DNA from: Thermoplasmatota archaeon
GTDB taxonomy: Archaea > Thermoplasmatota > Thermoplasmata > Thermoplasmatales > Thermoplasmataceae
NCBI GenBank assembly: GCA_023487205.1
Contig: JAMDBT010000052.1
Span: 1-34,131, forward strand
Direction of reading: 5' to 3'
Length of the DNA: 34,131 nucleotides
Within the stretch, counting starts at the first letter, position 1; each line of letters begins with the position of its first letter. The position numbers were made by a program, and so were the translations under genes. Shown one piece after another: positions 21,785-28,619 of this stretch. A model generated the notes under the pieces. It worked only from the letters and a program-made list of their open reading frames with translations, searched no databases and was not told the origin of the DNA.

Positions 21785-22410
21785 GGTATCCAATAAAACG
21801 ACAAGGGCATATACTGCGCCATGTAGGATAACCCGAGAAATGACAGGTGCAGGGCAATATCACCATAAACGTTCCTTCTGAAGTAATAGATGATGCCGTA
21901 CAGGATTCCCATGGAGAAGGTATCCAGCAGGTCCAGCAGGTTATATGGCCACGGATAGCCTGCCTGCTCGAAGACAGTAAACGAGGAATAGAATAGCGTA
22001 AATGCAAGTGCCTGCGCCAGCACTGCCTTTTCCTTTCCCACATATCCGGTCAGCTTGCGCTGTATTACAAACCTGAAATTGATCTCATCCAGGTATGCAG
22101 GGAAATAGAGCAGGAGCTGGTATGTATCCTGCCTGAAAACAGCGAATATCAAAATCCAGGCAGCGACTGCAATCATAAGTATCGCCATGTCTTTGGAAGC
22201 CACCAGGTCGGTAAGCGACTTTCTCAGGTCCGAATCAGTTAATGAAACGTAGCCAGCGAAAAGGACGATGAACACCAGGTAGAGTATGTAGATACTTGCA
22301 GCGTTCGCAACGCTTCCGGACGTCGCAAGATAGACGAAAACGAAGTACAGGATGAATGCTGCAGCTTCTCCAAGAACGAAAACCAGGATCATCCTACGCT
22401 GTGGCGCCAT
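21763..22410 (-). CDS. CPBP-like (CAAX-protease-related) membrane protein, degenerate site
   Basis: A 215-residue protein with six or so helices. Asp108-Glu109-x3-Arg113 (AYLDEINFRFVIQRKL) matches the Glu-Glu-x3-Arg motif of CPBP/Abi proteases and His188 (DIALHLSF) the last motif, but the expected Phe-x3-His in between reads FTLFYSSF with no histidine. It may be a non-proteolytic relative. The start ATG 22410 has GGAG 8 bases upstream and overlaps the preceding stop by 17 bases. It is the last gene of the oxidase operon, so a role in assembly or quality control of the oxidase is inferred. Confidence 0.65.
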   Translation of the reverse strand: MAPQRRMILVFVLGEAAAFILYFVFVYLATSGSVANAASIYILYLVFIVLFAGYVSLTDSDLRKSLTDLVASKDMAILMIAVAAWILIFAVFRQDTYQLLLYFPAYLDEINFRFVIQRKLTGYVGKEKAVLAQALAFTLFYSSFTVFEQAGYPWPYNLLDLLDTFSMGILYGIIYYFRRNVYGDIALHLSFLGLSYMAQYMPLSFYWIPYIFSPI

Positions 22411-23842
22411 GAACGTCTCCTTCACGTATATGGTATCCAAGTATGGATGCGACAGTGACAAGCCACAATATCGGGATCGCCAGTTCAGTCATCACAACTG
22501 CAAAGGTGAACTGTGAAAGCAGGGAAAACTGTGGCCAGATTGGGTTTGGTGATACCACAGAGTAGTAAAAGATGAATAGCCCCAGGAGCGGGAACATCAT
22601 GGCAACAGTCTCCATGTATATGCCAGACAATCTTTTTCCAACCAGGATCAGGCCGATGCCTCCAGCGAGCCCGCCCAGGATGGATGCGAGGTCCATCACA
22701 AGGTAAACGAGGAACTTGTTGAACGCCAACGCAGAAAAAAAGGGGAAAAACCATGCGAGCATGGAAACCATGGATAATGCAAGCAAAGCGAATCCCGCAC
22801 CCGGCCTGTTACTGTCACGGAGAACCGGATGGATAGCTGAAAATCCTCCAAGGAATCCTCCGAAATACATAACAAGCGCTAGACCGTAGAAATAGAATAT
22901 GGAGTATTCCAGGCCAAGAAGTGCGCCCAGAAATGAAACGGTCATTGTAATCACGAGAAGAGCCACTGAAGGAATTCTCACACCGGACGCAATCCGCAGG
23001 AGTATAATGATCAATCCGCTCCTGTTTTTCAATGCTCCCAAGAACAATATGTTGCCCACCAGAACGAGAATAACAGCTTCCCCAATCAGGGGAAGGACCA
23101 GGATTCCCACGAGAAGCGAGGAGATCGCAGGAGCCGCTGCCACGATGCCCTCGCACTGGCAGCTCAACGCCACCACCGACCCGCTGAGAGTTGGTGTCGA
23201 GAGACCCCTGATTCGGGTCCCATCACCGGCATGAACAATTCTCCAGATAAGGTAGAAATTCTCTGGGATCAGGTAAGCAAGGATGACAAGAATCACGACA
23301 TACTGAAAGCTGAAGGTCAGCACTGCGTACTTGCCGTAGAGAATAATTGCTGACGCGAACAGAAGCGAAACTCCGGCAGGCGCTTCATCGTCATAGATTG
23401 ACCCAACTAGGAAAAGGTTAGGTCCAGAAGTGATGGAAGTTGCCTCTATTCTAAGCAGGCTGGACACAAAGAACATAAACAAGAGAAACGACACCGATAC
23501 GATCCACCTGTTGCGCAATCCCCTCTCCTGCCTTGCGACTATCCAAAGCTGCAGGAAGGCGAGAGCCGCGAGGGGGACCGTAGCAAACGCAGATCCCGCG
23601 TATAATATGGCGAGAGTGATCCACATGGTAAACGACGCAGCGGAAAGATAAGTCCTGGACTTCCACTCTTTGGGCAAGAGTGGAAAAATCCCGGCGAACC
23701 CGACAAGAGCCAGGAACAGAAGATACTCCAGCTTAACGTACGGTTCTATGAAGATTCCACCCATGAATAGAAAGATAGTCGATATTGCAAGGAGCAGTTC
23801 AACTAAAGAGAAATGAAGGAAGTTCAATGATCGTTCATTCAA
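22394..23842 (-). CDS. Unknown polytopic membrane protein of the oxidase operon, Cys-Gln-Cys-Glu motif
   Basis: A 482-residue protein with about twelve hydrophobic segments. The one striking motif is SVVALSCQCEGIVAAAP, with Cys228 and Cys230 and a glutamate at the mouth of a helix. I do not recognise a family. Its start overlaps the ctaB stop: TTG 23842 shares bases with the TGA 23839-23841, and an alternative TTG at 23857 would add five residues. This indicates coupled translation with haem O synthase. Position and cysteines suggest copper or haem handling for the oxidase, which is inference only. Confidence 0.75.
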   Translation of the reverse strand: MNERSLNFLHFSLVELLLAISTIFLFMGGIFIEPYVKLEYLLFLALVGFAGIFPLLPKEWKSRTYLSAASFTMWITLAILYAGSAFATVPLAALAFLQLWIVARQERGLRNRWIVSVSFLLFMFFVSSLLRIEATSITSGPNLFLVGSIYDDEAPAGVSLLFASAIILYGKYAVLTFSFQYVVILVILAYLIPENFYLIWRIVHAGDGTRIRGLSTPTLSGSVVALSCQCEGIVAAAPAISSLLVGILVLPLIGEAVILVLVGNILFLGALKNRSGLIIILLRIASGVRIPSVALLVITMTVSFLGALLGLEYSIFYFYGLALVMYFGGFLGGFSAIHPVLRDSNRPGAGFALLALSMVSMLAWFFPFFSALAFNKFLVYLVMDLASILGGLAGGIGLILVGKRLSGIYMETVAMMFPLLGLFIFYYSVVSPNPIWPQFSLLSQFTFAVVMTELAIPILWLVTVASILGYHIREGDVHGATA

Positions 23843-24714
23843 ACAACCACCACGCAAATGCCCAGTAACAGCAGCATGAGGTAGTAGTTGGAAAAGTGAA
23901 ACGTTTTCCTGTAAACATCAACAGAATACTTTGATTGGTACTGCATCAGCGTATAGTAAAGCAGGAATACATTAAGAATAATGGCGAGGGCGTAAAAGAC
24001 CATTCCTACGTTGATAATCTGCCCCTCTCCGGCCAGATAGAGAAGAACTGGAACCATTGTGTAAAGGATCAGGATTGCGGAATTCAGGGAGATGTAGTTT
24101 GCTGTGGCCTCGGGGGACTTTGTGGAGGGCAACATGGGCACGCCAGCTGCGGTGTAATCGGTTTTGTTCCCTGATGCAAGGCTCCAGAAATGCGTTGGAG
24201 TCCATATGAAAACAAGGAAAGCAATATAGAGGGAAGTCACAGAGACCGAATTCGTGACTGCCGACCATCCGGCAAGTGCAGGAAACCCACCTGCAATGCC
24301 TCCAATGACAATATTCCACGTAGTCCTCCTCTTAAGTAATATGGTATAAAGGAAGAGATATGACAGAAATCCCGAGAGGATGAATACCGCTGTGATCAGG
24401 TTAATGAGAAACCAGGATATGAAAAAGGAGGCGACCATCATAGCAGTGCCAAGGAAGTAAAGAAACCTCTCCCTGGACGAAATCATAGACTCCCTGCTTC
24501 TGGTCCTCCTCATCACCACGTCAATGTCCCTGTCGTACAGGTTATTGAATAGTCCCGCAGACATGGATGCTAATGCGCCGGTAAGTATCAGGACAGGAAA
24601 GGCATACAACCTCAAAAGAAAACCGGGCGCAGATAGGAATCCAGCAGCAGCGACGAGCAACACCAGCAGTGTTATCTCGCCCTTCAGAAGTTTCCAGGCT
24701 TCCCTAAACTTCAT
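23839..24714 (-). CDS. ctaB: Protoheme IX farnesyltransferase (haem O synthase) CtaB
   Basis: A 291-residue UbiA-superfamily membrane enzyme that joins farnesyl diphosphate to haem B, giving haem O for the oxidase. The first Asp-rich motif is Asn57-x3-Asp61-x3-Asp65 (NNLYDRDIDVVMRR). The second conserved region includes FIWTPTHFWSLA, and the loop KRRTTWNIVIGGIAGGFPAL is also typical. Nine hydrophobic segments are visible. The ATG lies inside the last codons of the cupredoxin gene (11-base overlap). No haem A synthase gene (ctaA) is visible in this window. Confidence 0.93.
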   Translation of the reverse strand: MKFREAWKLLKGEITLLVLLVAAAGFLSAPGFLLRLYAFPVLILTGALASMSAGLFNNLYDRDIDVVMRRTRSRESMISSRERFLYFLGTAMMVASFFISWFLINLITAVFILSGFLSYLFLYTILLKRRTTWNIVIGGIAGGFPALAGWSAVTNSVSVTSLYIAFLVFIWTPTHFWSLASGNKTDYTAAGVPMLPSTKSPEATANYISLNSAILILYTMVPVLLYLAGEGQIINVGMVFYALAIILNVFLLYYTLMQYQSKYSVDVYRKTFHFSNYYLMLLLLGICVVVV

Positions 24715-26248
24715 TTTTCCCAGCAGAGTTCAGAATCAAGGGTGAGTATATTGGCATAACTGATGCTATTGCAGGGGCGGTCGTTCCTTTCGATCCGGTC
24801 ACTGTTATTCTCCCGATTGCCGTGTTCGGGTGGTAGTAGTCCCAGTAGGTGTAATTCCCCGTCTGATTAAACAAATAATAGCCTGATGAAGAAGCATTTC
24901 CATTCGTCACTTCGGCTACCTTTACCGCCAGGGTTGAATTGTATGAGTTTCCGTAGTTCACTTCAAGGGTATGGTTAAGATTGTCAGTGTTGACAATTGT
25001 GAAGTTGACGAGGTCCCCCGCGCTAACGGACAATGTCGGATTAGTGGTGCTATTCTGGTTCCATACAAAATTGGCTGCGCTCAGGGAATAGTTTACGATA
25101 TTGACATAGGTGAAAAGGTGATGGTAGGTAGAGGAGCTAAACCCGTCATACAGGGTGAATGCCTGGGCCACGGAAGGCACATAGACCACGGTCTCATTGG
25201 AGCTGTTTGTTCCAACAATGGTGATGTTGGTCTTTGATGGCGAGTACCCTTTTGCCAACAGAACGTCATAGCTGATCTTGGCCGAATCGTTGATCCCGAT
25301 ACGGAGAAGCGATCCATTTTTCACCAGGATTGAGCTATTCAGATTCCCGTTAAGGTCCAGCCCGTTTGACGTGACTGTCAGGATTATGGAATTGATCCCG
25401 ATGACCACGAATATGTGGCCCTCCGTTGCATTGGCATAGTTGGGGTCCCAGTATGTGTACTCCCCCGTGACATTAAAGTATGCAGTGAAGTTTGACGTAG
25501 CTCCTACCTTTGTGGAAAGTGATGAAGGCTTGAGCAGCACTTCATTGTATGACGACTCATTGCTCCCGGGAGCTATATAGAAGCCGTGCTGGTTTCCATC
25601 TTCCTGGATAATGGTGAAGTTCACCAGCGTACCCAGTCTGAAGTATAAGACAGGGTTGACCGCGCCGTGGCTGTAGTTCCAGCCGTTCGAGTCTGCGTAC
25701 AGGGTCTGGTTTGCATTTGCGCTCATGTTTGCGGGAGGCGTTGGGAGACTGAAAGTGGGCAGTGAGTTATTCACCCAAAGGTGCCCAATCATTGTCTGGG
25801 GATGTACGACGCACCAGTACGTGTACTCGCCGAGTGTATCAAAGTAAGCCTGGGCAAAAGATACATGACCTGTGGTGGTAGTTATGTCTGACGTGGAAAG
25901 TAGCGTGTCGCTGGTCGAAGAAATAGACGAACCCTGCGCAATAGTAAGGGTGTGGGGCTGATTGTCTTCCTCAATCACGGTAAAATTAACCACAGTACCA
26001 GGAAGGACGACGATTGTCGGATTCACTTTCAAACCTGACTGTACCGGTAGCCCTTTCTGGTTCGAGTTCCATCCATTTGCATCCGCGTATAGCGTTACGT
26101 TGACGTAATGCGCGGGGTGTGCTGGTATGCCTGGCAAGGAATATGCCGGCGATGTAGGAACAGAGAGTTCCAAGCCCAGGGCGATTCCAGCCACCAGAAG
26201 TATTGCGATTACAAATATGGGGCCGGTTGCAGCAGATTTTTCAGCCAT
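24704..26248 (-). CDS. Membrane-anchored multi-cupredoxin protein (sulfocyanin/rusticyanin-like)
   Basis: A 514-residue protein with an N-terminal membrane anchor (residues 10-27) and an extracytoplasmic part made of repeated cupredoxin units. Unit 1 (about 50-160) keeps a full type 1 copper site: His99, Cys146, His149, Met153 (EYTYWCVVHPQTMIGH). Unit 2 (180-283) repeats LYADSNGWN and EYTYWDPN but has Asp268 in place of the cysteine. The last unit (394-485) has His426 and NYTYWDYYHP, again Asp (470) for Cys. The segment between, 284-393, is a still more divergent unit. Many Asn-x-Ser/Thr sites suggest heavy glycosylation. The likely role is electron delivery to the oxidase. A ribosome site AGGTGAT precedes ATG 26248, and subunit I ends 6 bases upstream. 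Confidence 0.88.
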   Translation of the reverse strand: MAEKSAATGPIFVIAILLVAGIALGLELSVPTSPAYSLPGIPAHPAHYVNVTLYADANGWNSNQKGLPVQSGLKVNPTIVVLPGTVVNFTVIEEDNQPHTLTIAQGSSISSTSDTLLSTSDITTTTGHVSFAQAYFDTLGEYTYWCVVHPQTMIGHLWVNNSLPTFSLPTPPANMSANANQTLYADSNGWNYSHGAVNPVLYFRLGTLVNFTIIQEDGNQHGFYIAPGSNESSYNEVLLKPSSLSTKVGATSNFTAYFNVTGEYTYWDPNYANATEGHIFVVIGINSIILTVTSNGLDLNGNLNSSILVKNGSLLRIGINDSAKISYDVLLAKGYSPSKTNITIVGTNSSNETVVYVPSVAQAFTLYDGFSSSTYHHLFTYVNIVNYSLSAANFVWNQNSTTNPTLSVSAGDLVNFTIVNTDNLNHTLEVNYGNSYNSTLAVKVAEVTNGNASSSGYYLFNQTGNYTYWDYYHPNTAIGRITVTGSKGTTAPAIASVMPIYSPLILNSAGKNEV

Positions 26249-26254
26249 GGATAA

Positions 26255-27931
26255 TCACCTTCCGCCTGAACCCGCGACTTCGGCCGCAGGCACCATCTCA
26301 AGGGCATTCTCAAGGCCGAGCGTGGGATGCTTCAGCCAGCTGGTAGCAATGTTATACAGGAAGATCAACTGGCCGATTCCGATAATAATTCCGCCAAAAA
26401 TCGACACATCCTGATAAGTCTGGAAAATTGGAAGGTATCCGGCTACTGCTCTTGGCATTCCAACCAGTCCACCCAGTGTCCACGCACCTGCCATGATAAG
26501 CGATCCAATGGCGGTAAAGTAAAAGTGCAACCTCGCAAGGAAGACATTATAGGTTCTGCCGTTGCTGATCGTTGGGAATATCATATAAAAGGCAGCAAAC
26601 GAAATACCAGTGGTGATCCCCATGAAGATGAAATGGAAATGTCCGGTGACAAAATAGGTACCGTGAACAAGCTGGTTAACTCCCTGGTTGACTTGCATCA
26701 CTCCTGTTACGCCGCCAATTATGAAGTCTACAATTCCATTGATTACAAACAGCATAGGAGTCGTAATTCTTATCTTATCCGCAGACCACAGCGATGCTAC
26801 GAAGTTGAACACCGTTATGGCGGAGGGCACAACCACAGCAAAAGAAGTGATTGAAAAGAACAGGTCCCAGTATATCCCAAGTCCGGAGTTAAGAAGATGG
26901 TGCCCCCATACAACTTCACTTAGCAGGAGGAGGAGCCCAAGTCCGATGACGGCTGATCCGTAACTGTAAATCGGCTTTCCCGTGAACCTGGGAATTATTT
27001 CGTAGATCAGGCCGAAATAGGGAAGTACGGCCACGTAAACAATTGGGTGCCCCCAAAACCAGAATAGTATGGTGAACAGCAAAACCTGATGAGTTGGGCC
27101 TGTGAAGAAGATGGGGTTGAAGTAGTCATAGAAAAGCATCCCGAGGCCGACCATCAATGGGGGGGCAGAAAACACAATCATTAGTGCGGTGAAAAGTACC
27201 GACCATGAGAAGATGCTCATATTGGTCCACTTTACTTCTGGACCGCGGTCTTTCCAAATCATCAGGATGACGACTATGCTGGTGATCATGACCCCTAGAA
27301 ATACCATCTCCAACCCGATGACTGCGAGCCATTCCAGCAGGCCCGCCTGGTTTGGGCCAAGCTGGAGTGAAAGCGGGGGATAGAAATACCACCTTCCTGC
27401 GGTTCTGGAATAAATGATCAAAACCCCACCAAGGAACCAGAGCCAGAAGCCAGCGGAAGAATATGTACCACGCGTGTCCCTGGCAACCTTGAGGTGTGAC
27501 GGAAGCAGGTAATATGCGAAGGCAAACGCGCTTCCTACCGCCCACATATATATCATAAGTGTTGCGTGTTCAGAAAGCAGAACATTATATTCGTCCGGAG
27601 AAAGCAGGTAGGGATTTGGTACAGTCAGGTTCAACCGCATCGTCAGGCCGAAAGTCCCGGCTATGAAGAAGAAGAATATGCTGGCGATCAGGTACCTGAT
27701 TCCGATACTCTTTGCATCATCATTCAGAAATGCAGATACTGACAGTAGCCTTGGTCTGGAACCAAGCGTGTCCCTCATAAATTGCTTTGGGTTTTCGTAG
27801 CCGGCGGTCTCGGCTGCCCCCCCGATCTCAGATTTCCTGTTTAAAATGTAATAGAAGGTTAGGAAAATAATCAGTAATATGACTGAAAGCGCAACAGAAA
27901 GATCAACCATCAGATTGAAATAATCCTGCAC
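26255..27931 (-). CDS. Haem-copper oxidase subunit I
   Basis: The 558-residue catalytic subunit of the terminal oxidase, reducing O2 to water in the cytoplasmic membrane. It has an extra N-terminal helix (9-30). His122 (SEHATLMIYMW) and His433 bind the low-spin haem, and His431 the haem at the active site (GHFHF). CuB ligands are His295, His344 and His345, and Tyr299 (GHPIVYVAVLPYFG) is placed for the His-Tyr crosslink. Ile297 replaces the glutamate of the GHPEVY motif of A1-type enzymes. The start is GTG 27931, two bases after the subunit II stop. No subunit III gene is seen nearby. Confidence 0.95.
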   Translation of the reverse strand: MQDYFNLMVDLSVALSVILLIIFLTFYYILNRKSEIGGAAETAGYENPKQFMRDTLGSRPRLLSVSAFLNDDAKSIGIRYLIASIFFFFIAGTFGLTMRLNLTVPNPYLLSPDEYNVLLSEHATLMIYMWAVGSAFAFAYYLLPSHLKVARDTRGTYSSAGFWLWFLGGVLIIYSRTAGRWYFYPPLSLQLGPNQAGLLEWLAVIGLEMVFLGVMITSIVVILMIWKDRGPEVKWTNMSIFSWSVLFTALMIVFSAPPLMVGLGMLFYDYFNPIFFTGPTHQVLLFTILFWFWGHPIVYVAVLPYFGLIYEIIPRFTGKPIYSYGSAVIGLGLLLLLSEVVWGHHLLNSGLGIYWDLFFSITSFAVVVPSAITVFNFVASLWSADKIRITTPMLFVINGIVDFIIGGVTGVMQVNQGVNQLVHGTYFVTGHFHFIFMGITTGISFAAFYMIFPTISNGRTYNVFLARLHFYFTAIGSLIMAGAWTLGGLVGMPRAVAGYLPIFQTYQDVSIFGGIIIGIGQLIFLYNIATSWLKHPTLGLENALEMVPAAEVAGSGGR

Positions 27932-27933
27932 CT

Positions 27934-28377
27934 CTAGGCCACCACCTGAAGAGTCCCCGTCATCTTGTAGTGGTATTCACCGCAGTATTCTACGCACTCA
28001 AAGAAATATGACCCTGTCCCGGAGGGACGAAAAACCACTGTGTTATTGTTGCCAGGAACGGCATACGCCTGTATGTCCATTTGCGGAATGTACAGGTCGT
28101 GTATCACATCAGTGGAATTCACGATGAGTGCAATTGTGGTATTCACAGGAACAGATAGAAAATCGTGGGTTACCGTGCCATTAGGATAAGTGAAAGTCCA
28201 AACCCACTGGCTTCCTGTCACGTGTATGACGTAAGCGCCCGCCGGGATGCTCCCATTCTCCTGTGCGACCGAACTGGAAATATCAGAAATAAGCGCTGCA
28301 TTAAGTATGGCGGACCCAACCAATATGGCTACTACGGCCGATATGAAGATCAACTCCTTCCTGATCTTATCTTTCAC
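27934..28377 (-). CDS. Haem-copper oxidase subunit II (CuA protein)
   Basis: A 147-residue protein with one N-terminal membrane helix (10-30) and an extracytoplasmic cupredoxin domain. The binuclear CuA site is complete: His93, Cys128, Glu130, Cys132, His136 and Met139 (CVEYCGEYHYKM). The aromatic electron-entry region is GSQWVWTFTYPNG. A single anchor and short length resemble ba3/SoxH-type subunits rather than two-helix bacterial ones. Its GTG start overlaps the stop of the preceding small gene by four bases. Confidence 0.94.
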   Translation of the reverse strand: MKDKIRKELIFISAVVAILVGSAILNAALISDISSSVAQENGSIPAGAYVIHVTGSQWVWTFTYPNGTVTHDFLSVPVNTTIALIVNSTDVIHDLYIPQMDIQAYAVPGNNNTVVFRPSGTGSYFFECVEYCGEYHYKMTGTLQVVA

Positions 28378-28619
28378 TTGAAGTCAACCCCGCTTTCGCG
28401 CACTCCCTTTGTCCACACCGGATACACGAGGAGCGCAATTGTAAAGAAAGCAGCAGCAACGCCGGTGGCCATGAATGGCGGTGTCAGTGAGGCAGTATAA
28501 TTTCCGGGATATCCGTTGAAGAAGGTGGAAAAGAATGCATAAAACTCGAAATCAAATAAAATCCAGACAACAACTGTAGCAACAAAAATCGCCACAACCA
28601 CGTTGCGTTCATTGCTCAT
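28374..28619 (-). CDS. Small two-helix membrane protein, first gene of the oxidase operon
   Basis: An 81-residue protein with helices at about 8-30 and 48-68 and a short charged tail (TKGVRESGVDFK). I do not recognise a family. Being first in the oxidase operon and overlapping subunit II by four bases, it is a candidate accessory subunit, or the missing second helix of subunit II supplied as a separate chain. ATG 28619 lies 25 bases after a TATA box, so it is leaderless. Confidence 0.75.
   Translation of the reverse strand: MSNERNVVVAIFVATVVVWILFDFEFYAFFSTFFNGYPGNYTASLTPPFMATGVAAAFFTIALLVYPVWTKGVRESGVDFK

Follow-up and report, generated by a model that had tools for sequence, protein, structure and literature searches.

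We analyzed a window comprising 34,131 nucleotides of contig JAMDBT010000052.1 (assembly GCA_023487205.1) from a Thermoplasmatota archaeon of the Thermoplasmataceae. Read from right to left, the genes at the locus of interest encode an 81-residue membrane protein, COX2, COX1, a cupredoxin, a UbiA-family protein, a 487-residue membrane protein, and an Rce1-like protein (Table 1). The gene order O81-COX2-COX1-cupredoxin-ctaB was identical in approximately 60 loci, indicating an operon conserved across the order. An initial sequence-only reading of the window had placed the cupredoxin gene beside a CuA oxidase, and the complete CuA motif of the COX2 encoded in the operon supported this assignment. 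All COX2 proteins of the compared operons contained the motif except that of L032, whose sequence is partial or divergent. The 81-residue protein that opens the operon is possibly a small oxidase subunit. The 487-residue protein directly behind ctaB, for which a Pfam search gave no match, is possibly a heme A or oxidase assembly factor. We also observed a gap of about 1.2 kb between COX1 and the cupredoxin gene in genome G044 (L038, 4636-5878), unlike the remaining loci.

Table 1. Genes of the operon and segments of the four-unit cupredoxin, with positions in the window.
Feature	Position	Strand	Basis
81-residue membrane protein at operon head, conserved; overlaps the COX2 start	28374..28619	-	Gene-order comparison
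COX2 with complete CuA motif CVEYCGEYHYKM	27934..28377	-	PF00116; motif read in the translation
COX1, heme-copper oxidase subunit I	26255..27931	-	PF00115, E 9e-109
Four-unit cupredoxin, 514 residues, membrane-anchored	24704..26248	-	ORF list; profile matches; orthologues at the equivalent operon position in ~60 genomes
N-terminal transmembrane helix, residues 8-28	26165..26227	-	AlphaFold2 helix; N terminus conserved in orthologues
Short linker between anchor and copper unit, residues 29-46	26111..26164	-	AlphaFold2, low confidence at 28-33
Unit 1, residues 47-162; intact type 1 copper site H99, C146, H149, M153	25763..26110	-	PF00127; ligand alignment
Unit 2, residues 177-283; ligand positions H221, D268, Y271, T275	25400..25720	-	HMM, i-E 3e-27; ligand alignment
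Unit 3, residues 284-383; degenerate cupredoxin, ligands absent	25100..25399	-	hhalign; shuffle control; strands in full-length model
Unit 4 (last unit), residues 384-486; ligand positions H426, D470, H473, A477	24791..25099	-	HMM; PF13473; ligand alignment
C-terminal tail, residues 487-514; neither a fold nor a further anchor predicted	24707..24790	-	AlphaFold2, pLDDT below 50
UbiA family, probable heme O synthase ctaB	23839..24714	-	PF01040, E 3.5e-44
487-residue membrane protein directly behind ctaB, conserved across the order	22394..23857	-	Gene-order comparison

The same reading described the cupredoxin as an anchored protein built by internal duplication, and both parts of this description stood. 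An AlphaFold2 model computed with 17 sequences (mean pLDDT of 80) predicted an N-terminal helix at residues 8 to 28 and β strands through all four units; with a pTM of 0.60 for the full-length model, the packing of the domains was uncertain. The predicted N-terminal helix may instead be a signal peptide that is removed by cleavage. Units 1 and 2 share the LYAD-NGWN motif, the YTYW motif is present in these two and in unit 4, and an HMM made from single-unit orthologues only detected units 1, 2, and 4 at i-E values of 1e-37, 3e-27, and 3.5e-19, respectively. Unit 1 matched PF00127 (Copper-bind) just over the curated cutoff (22.6 versus 21.2 bits), and residues 400 to 483 of unit 4 matched PF13473 (Cupredoxin_1) just under it (25.8 versus 27 bits). 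The NCBIfam equivalogs for plastocyanin (28.1 versus a cutoff of 87.85) and rusticyanin (21.7 versus 146.7) were not reached, and a sequence search of the PDB gave marginal matches only, to a Thermus NirK and a plastocyanin. Units 2 and 4 thus combine cupredoxin homology in the HMM search with β-sandwich strands in the model.

Unit 3 had been called almost unrecognizable, and it scored accordingly with the single-unit HMM, which was not significant for the window protein (0.07) and reached 7.5e-5 in the congener G090. However, hhalign connected unit 3 and its orthologues to a profile of the other units with a probability of 90.9 and an E value of 1.2e-6, and unit 3 scored 23 bits in an HMM comparison in which the best of 999 shuffled sequences reached 9.7 bits. 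For unit 3 of several g8 proteins and one g10 protein, the score did not exceed those of the shuffles. The full-length model, with β-sandwich units throughout, agrees with a cupredoxin fold for units 2 to 4; unit 3 folded alone reached a pLDDT of only 50. Because of this weak lone-unit model, we assigned the fold of unit 3 mainly from homology.

We detected a match in 66 of 117 genomes of the order. Most genera and a second family, f5, have single-unit proteins of approximately 180 to 270 residues, which share the anchor-copper layout of the multi-unit proteins; among their records are Cuniculiplasma sp., Thermogymnomonas acidicola, and I-plasma. Three-unit proteins of about 405 residues occur in genera g18 and g19, and four-unit proteins of about 490 to 527 residues in g1 (the genus of the window), g8, and g10, with all named multi-unit records being uncultured Thermoplasmata MAGs. 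In a tree of individual units, the last units of the three- and four-unit proteins formed one clade (UFBoot of 97 and SH-aLRT of 62, from a short alignment). Thus, the extension appears to be old, with the last unit predating the split of these genera. The backbone of a COX1 tree was unresolved and did not settle whether the five multi-unit genera form a single clade. Two loci are probable binning contamination of their genomes: that of G108 (g17), which at the protein level is identical to the one in G086 (g10; L070 and L071), and a g1-like contig (L131/L084) in G174, a genome of another family.

The type 1 ligands His-Cys-His-Met were intact in 44 of 44 single units and in unit 1 of 15 of 15 multi-unit proteins (59/59 in total). 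In contrast, none of the 30 extra units retained the Cys ligand, with Asp or Asn found instead, and unit 3 of the window protein has no Cys at all. These counts agree with the earlier proposals that unit 1 holds the single intact copper site and that Asp replaces Cys in units 2 and 4, and the search of orthologues extended them: the Cys-to-Asp/Asn changes recur, and none of the multi-unit orthologues contains another intact site. Calling the extra units dead was too strong for the last unit, in which 12 of 15 proteins, belonging to four genera, keep His-Asp-His. In the window protein, unit 4 has lost only Cys and Met and retains both His ligands, whereas unit 2 retains one His. Across orthologues, unit 2 has His1 in 6 of 9 proteins, Asp in 7 of 9 (Asn in the others), and His2 in none of 9, and the middle unit of g18 and g19 has Tyr, Asn, and Asn or Asp at the ligand positions. 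The last unit has His1 in 12 of 15 proteins, Asp in 13 of 15 (otherwise Asn), and His2 in all 15, with Ala or Ser at the Met position (Asp or Asn in g8).

The His1 and Asp positions covary. Among the extra units, all 18 with His1 had Asp, and 10 of the 12 without His1 had Asn (Fisher's exact test, 2e-6, computed on related rows). A fairer count is of the three unit lineages without His1, which are g8 unit 2, the g8 last unit, and the middle unit of g18 and g19. Asn appears in some or all members of each of these lineages and was not found where His1 stays. Judging from these alignments, the replacement of Cys by Asp is not random decay, and His1 and Asp change together.

We analyzed selection and predicted N-glycosylation for the separate units. 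In three close pairs of proteins, dN/dS was 0.068 to 0.135 for the outer units and 0.010 to 0.050 for unit 1, suggesting that the outer units are relaxed relative to unit 1 yet clearly constrained by purifying selection. As had been proposed, the outer units are rich in glycosylation signals at the level of N-x-S/T sequons: across 14 proteins, unit 1 had 2.15 per 100 residues and the other units had 6.4 to 9.7. The outer part of the window protein contains 25 sequons versus 11 expected by composition shuffling. Densities in neighboring proteins of the window were 0 to 1.5, and 3.4 in COX2; single-unit orthologues of the window's family were mostly near chance, and those of f5 were somewhat higher. 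These counts are of predicted sites rather than occupied glycans and come from related sequences that are not independent. The genome of the window has an STT3-family match (L150, G000:C11:16477-17247). This match falls in an open frame reported as 2,100 residues, which is unusually long for an oligosaccharyltransferase.

Blue-copper proteins encoded beside complex IV have been proposed to replace cytochrome c as electron carriers in Thermoplasmatales and Lutacidiplasmatales (PMC9287336). In the 96.5% complete MAG containing the window, single family searches gave no match for the c-type cytochrome family PF13442 or for the SoxE/sulfocyanin family PF06525, the latter ruling out that the window protein is itself a sulfocyanin. 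Searches of this genome with PF00127 and PF13473 found no further cupredoxin other than COX2. Two Rieske-cytochrome b gene pairs (L151 3278-5700 and L152 3372-5802) are candidate electron donors to the cupredoxin. In Cuniculiplasma strain PM4, neither a monoheme cytochrome c nor a rusticyanin or sulfocyanin was found, and the link between complexes III and IV was not predictable (PMC5155288). We found a single-unit cupredoxin within the cox operon of a Cuniculiplasma record (L021/L103), making the operon-embedded cupredoxin a direct candidate for this missing link.

Considering these results together, we favor, as rather probable, a model in which the protein is an operon-encoded blue-copper carrier of the CuA oxidase of an acidophilic Thermoplasmatales archaeon, a carrier whose duplicated, copper-less outer units provide a glycan-covered cap or a partner surface, with a His-Asp pair replacing the metal. 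In this model, unit 1, tethered just above the membrane, would take electrons from the Rieske/cytochrome b complex and hand them to CuA of subunit II, filling the role of cytochrome c or sulfocyanin elsewhere. The extra units likely arose by tandem duplication of a single cupredoxin in an ancestor of the five genera. The sequences show that the copies have since lost the type 1 site through Cys-to-Asp/Asn changes and accumulated sequons, and they retain the predicted sandwich fold. Because the chain runs from anchor to copper unit to extra units, the extra units would be on the side of the copper unit that faces away from the membrane; given the uncertain domain packing, this outward position is based on chain order and length. 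There they may form a canopy over the copper unit or hold partners at the surface of a cell without an S-layer, a layer mostly absent from Thermoplasmatales (PMC12448462). The most economical role for the extra units would be that of a glycan-bearing cap, either shielding the copper unit or keeping partners in place. As a structural tie, a buried His1-Asp pair most likely takes the place of the metal, which would explain both the joint change of His1 and Asp and the independence of His2.

The last unit bears on a different possibility, that it is not empty but binds a non-blue metal through His-Asp-His, with Ala or Ser for Met, providing a second site for redox chemistry, copper storage, or metal sensing. 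His-Asp-His is invariant in 12 last units from four genera, where 19 of the 103 columns are invariant and all three residues are among them (hypergeometric, 0.0055), and His1 and Asp were lost jointly in three unit lineages. Cu(II) is present in the crystallized azurin variants C112D and C112D/M121L (PMC8915257), and FtrB, a cupredoxin that naturally lacks the Cys, reportedly binds Cu2+ via D118 and H121, with the same Asp-x2-His spacing (PMC11966278). However, g8 retains His2 after loss of His1 and mostly of Asp, and unit 2 retains His1-Asp without His2; therefore, the three positions are not conserved as a single site. Furthermore, the conserved positions sit in a motif, YTYW-D-xYHP, that is conserved for other reasons, and His and Asp ligands would not easily stay deprotonated in habitats of such a pH. 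We consider a metal site in the last unit unlikely, and on the sequence pattern a structural His-Asp pair fits at least as well as an Asp-ligated metal site. A narrower form of this idea, which we regard as distinctly doubtful, is that a hard-ligand (His2-Asp, non-Met) copper site, of the "type zero" kind described for engineered azurin, has evolved naturally in the last unit, beside a type 1 site in one chain and facing an acid, metal-rich medium. The aligned ligands of unit 4 fit the type zero pattern of two His and one Asp in equatorial positions and a non-Met axial residue, a match of alignment rather than geometry.

Other readings of the extra units fared less well. The sequence-only reading had them as a spacer or arm that carries the copper head, and the outer units are indeed predicted sequon-rich sandwiches with short linkers, as a stalk holding the head off the membrane or swinging it between complexes might be. 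This proposal did not survive the chain order: the N-terminal anchor is followed from residue 47 by unit 1, so that the copper unit is membrane-proximal and the extra units are farther out. Since the model also has no second membrane segment at the C terminus and the single-unit orthologues have an identical anchor-copper arrangement, we regard a stalk as improbable. Similarly, we consider it quite improbable that the outer units are functionless leftovers of duplication that are drifting. Their ligands are gone and their amino acids change faster than those of unit 1, with unit 3 the fastest, but dN/dS is well below 1 for every unit, and approximately 15 multi-unit genes contain no stop codons or frameshifts. 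The old last-unit clade, the sequon enrichment, and an architecture common to several genera also argue against drift, and recent decay is ruled out by the dN/dS values and the common architecture. Finally, the top Foldseek matches were multi-cupredoxin proteins (ceruloplasmin, factors V and VIII, three-domain NirK, and laccases), as might be seen for a relative of multicopper oxidases or nitrite reductases with copper between units. With TM-scores below 0.25, these matches reflect repeated sandwiches, and the HxH and HCHxxxH motifs are absent from the sequence, making such a relationship very improbable.

The preferred model of a copper carrier with a copper-less cap has partial counterparts in known systems. 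Ceruloplasmin and coagulation factors V and VIII are glycoproteins built of several cupredoxins, not all of which have copper sites, but they have no close sequence relation to the window protein and a different unit packing. Sulfocyanin (SoxE, PF06525) is likewise a blue-copper carrier to a heme-copper oxidase in acidophilic archaea; strong matches to it within the order (E below 1e-17) were in g2, g5, g13, and g7, all but g7 without an operon cupredoxin. The single-domain blue-copper protein described beside complex IV of Thermoplasmatales and Lutacidiplasmatales (PF00127; PMC9287336) has the equal operon position and type 1 ligands but only one unit, and the part of that source available to us does not mention three- or four-unit forms with Cys-less units. 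A limited search of the literature on tandem and multi-domain cupredoxins did not find a multi-unit form combining Cys-to-Asp/Asn loss with sequon gain. Thus, the single-domain protein at this locus is already known, and within the limits of that search the multi-unit form with Cys-less, sequon-rich extra units is apparently new. The locus offers a natural graded series of one, three, and four units, in which a redox domain appears to have been duplicated, stripped of its type 1 site by repeated Cys-to-Asp/Asn changes, and turned into a sequon-rich surface domain.

For the last unit, the closest likenesses are azurin C112D and C112D/M121L, in which Cys is changed to Asp, both His ligands are kept, and in the double mutant Met is replaced. 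These azurins are engineered with copper demonstrated, whereas unit 4 is natural, is described from its sequence, and has Met changed to Ala or Ser; were the last unit to bind metal, the engineered site would have an equivalent in nature. FtrB of Brucella also has a cupredoxin fold with Asp-x2-His replacing Cys-x2-His (PMC11966278), but it is a single-domain iron uptake protein with an additional acidic metal site, and we liken it to unit 4 by description rather than sequence. Two-domain cupredoxins of family f27, from the same class, are tandem too, and several lie near COX2 (L133, L135, L138, L143, and others). They differ in a C-terminal hydrophobic helix and in Cys-His-Met ligands that are apparently intact in both domains of most members, so that f27 presents tandem duplication without site loss in most of its proteins.
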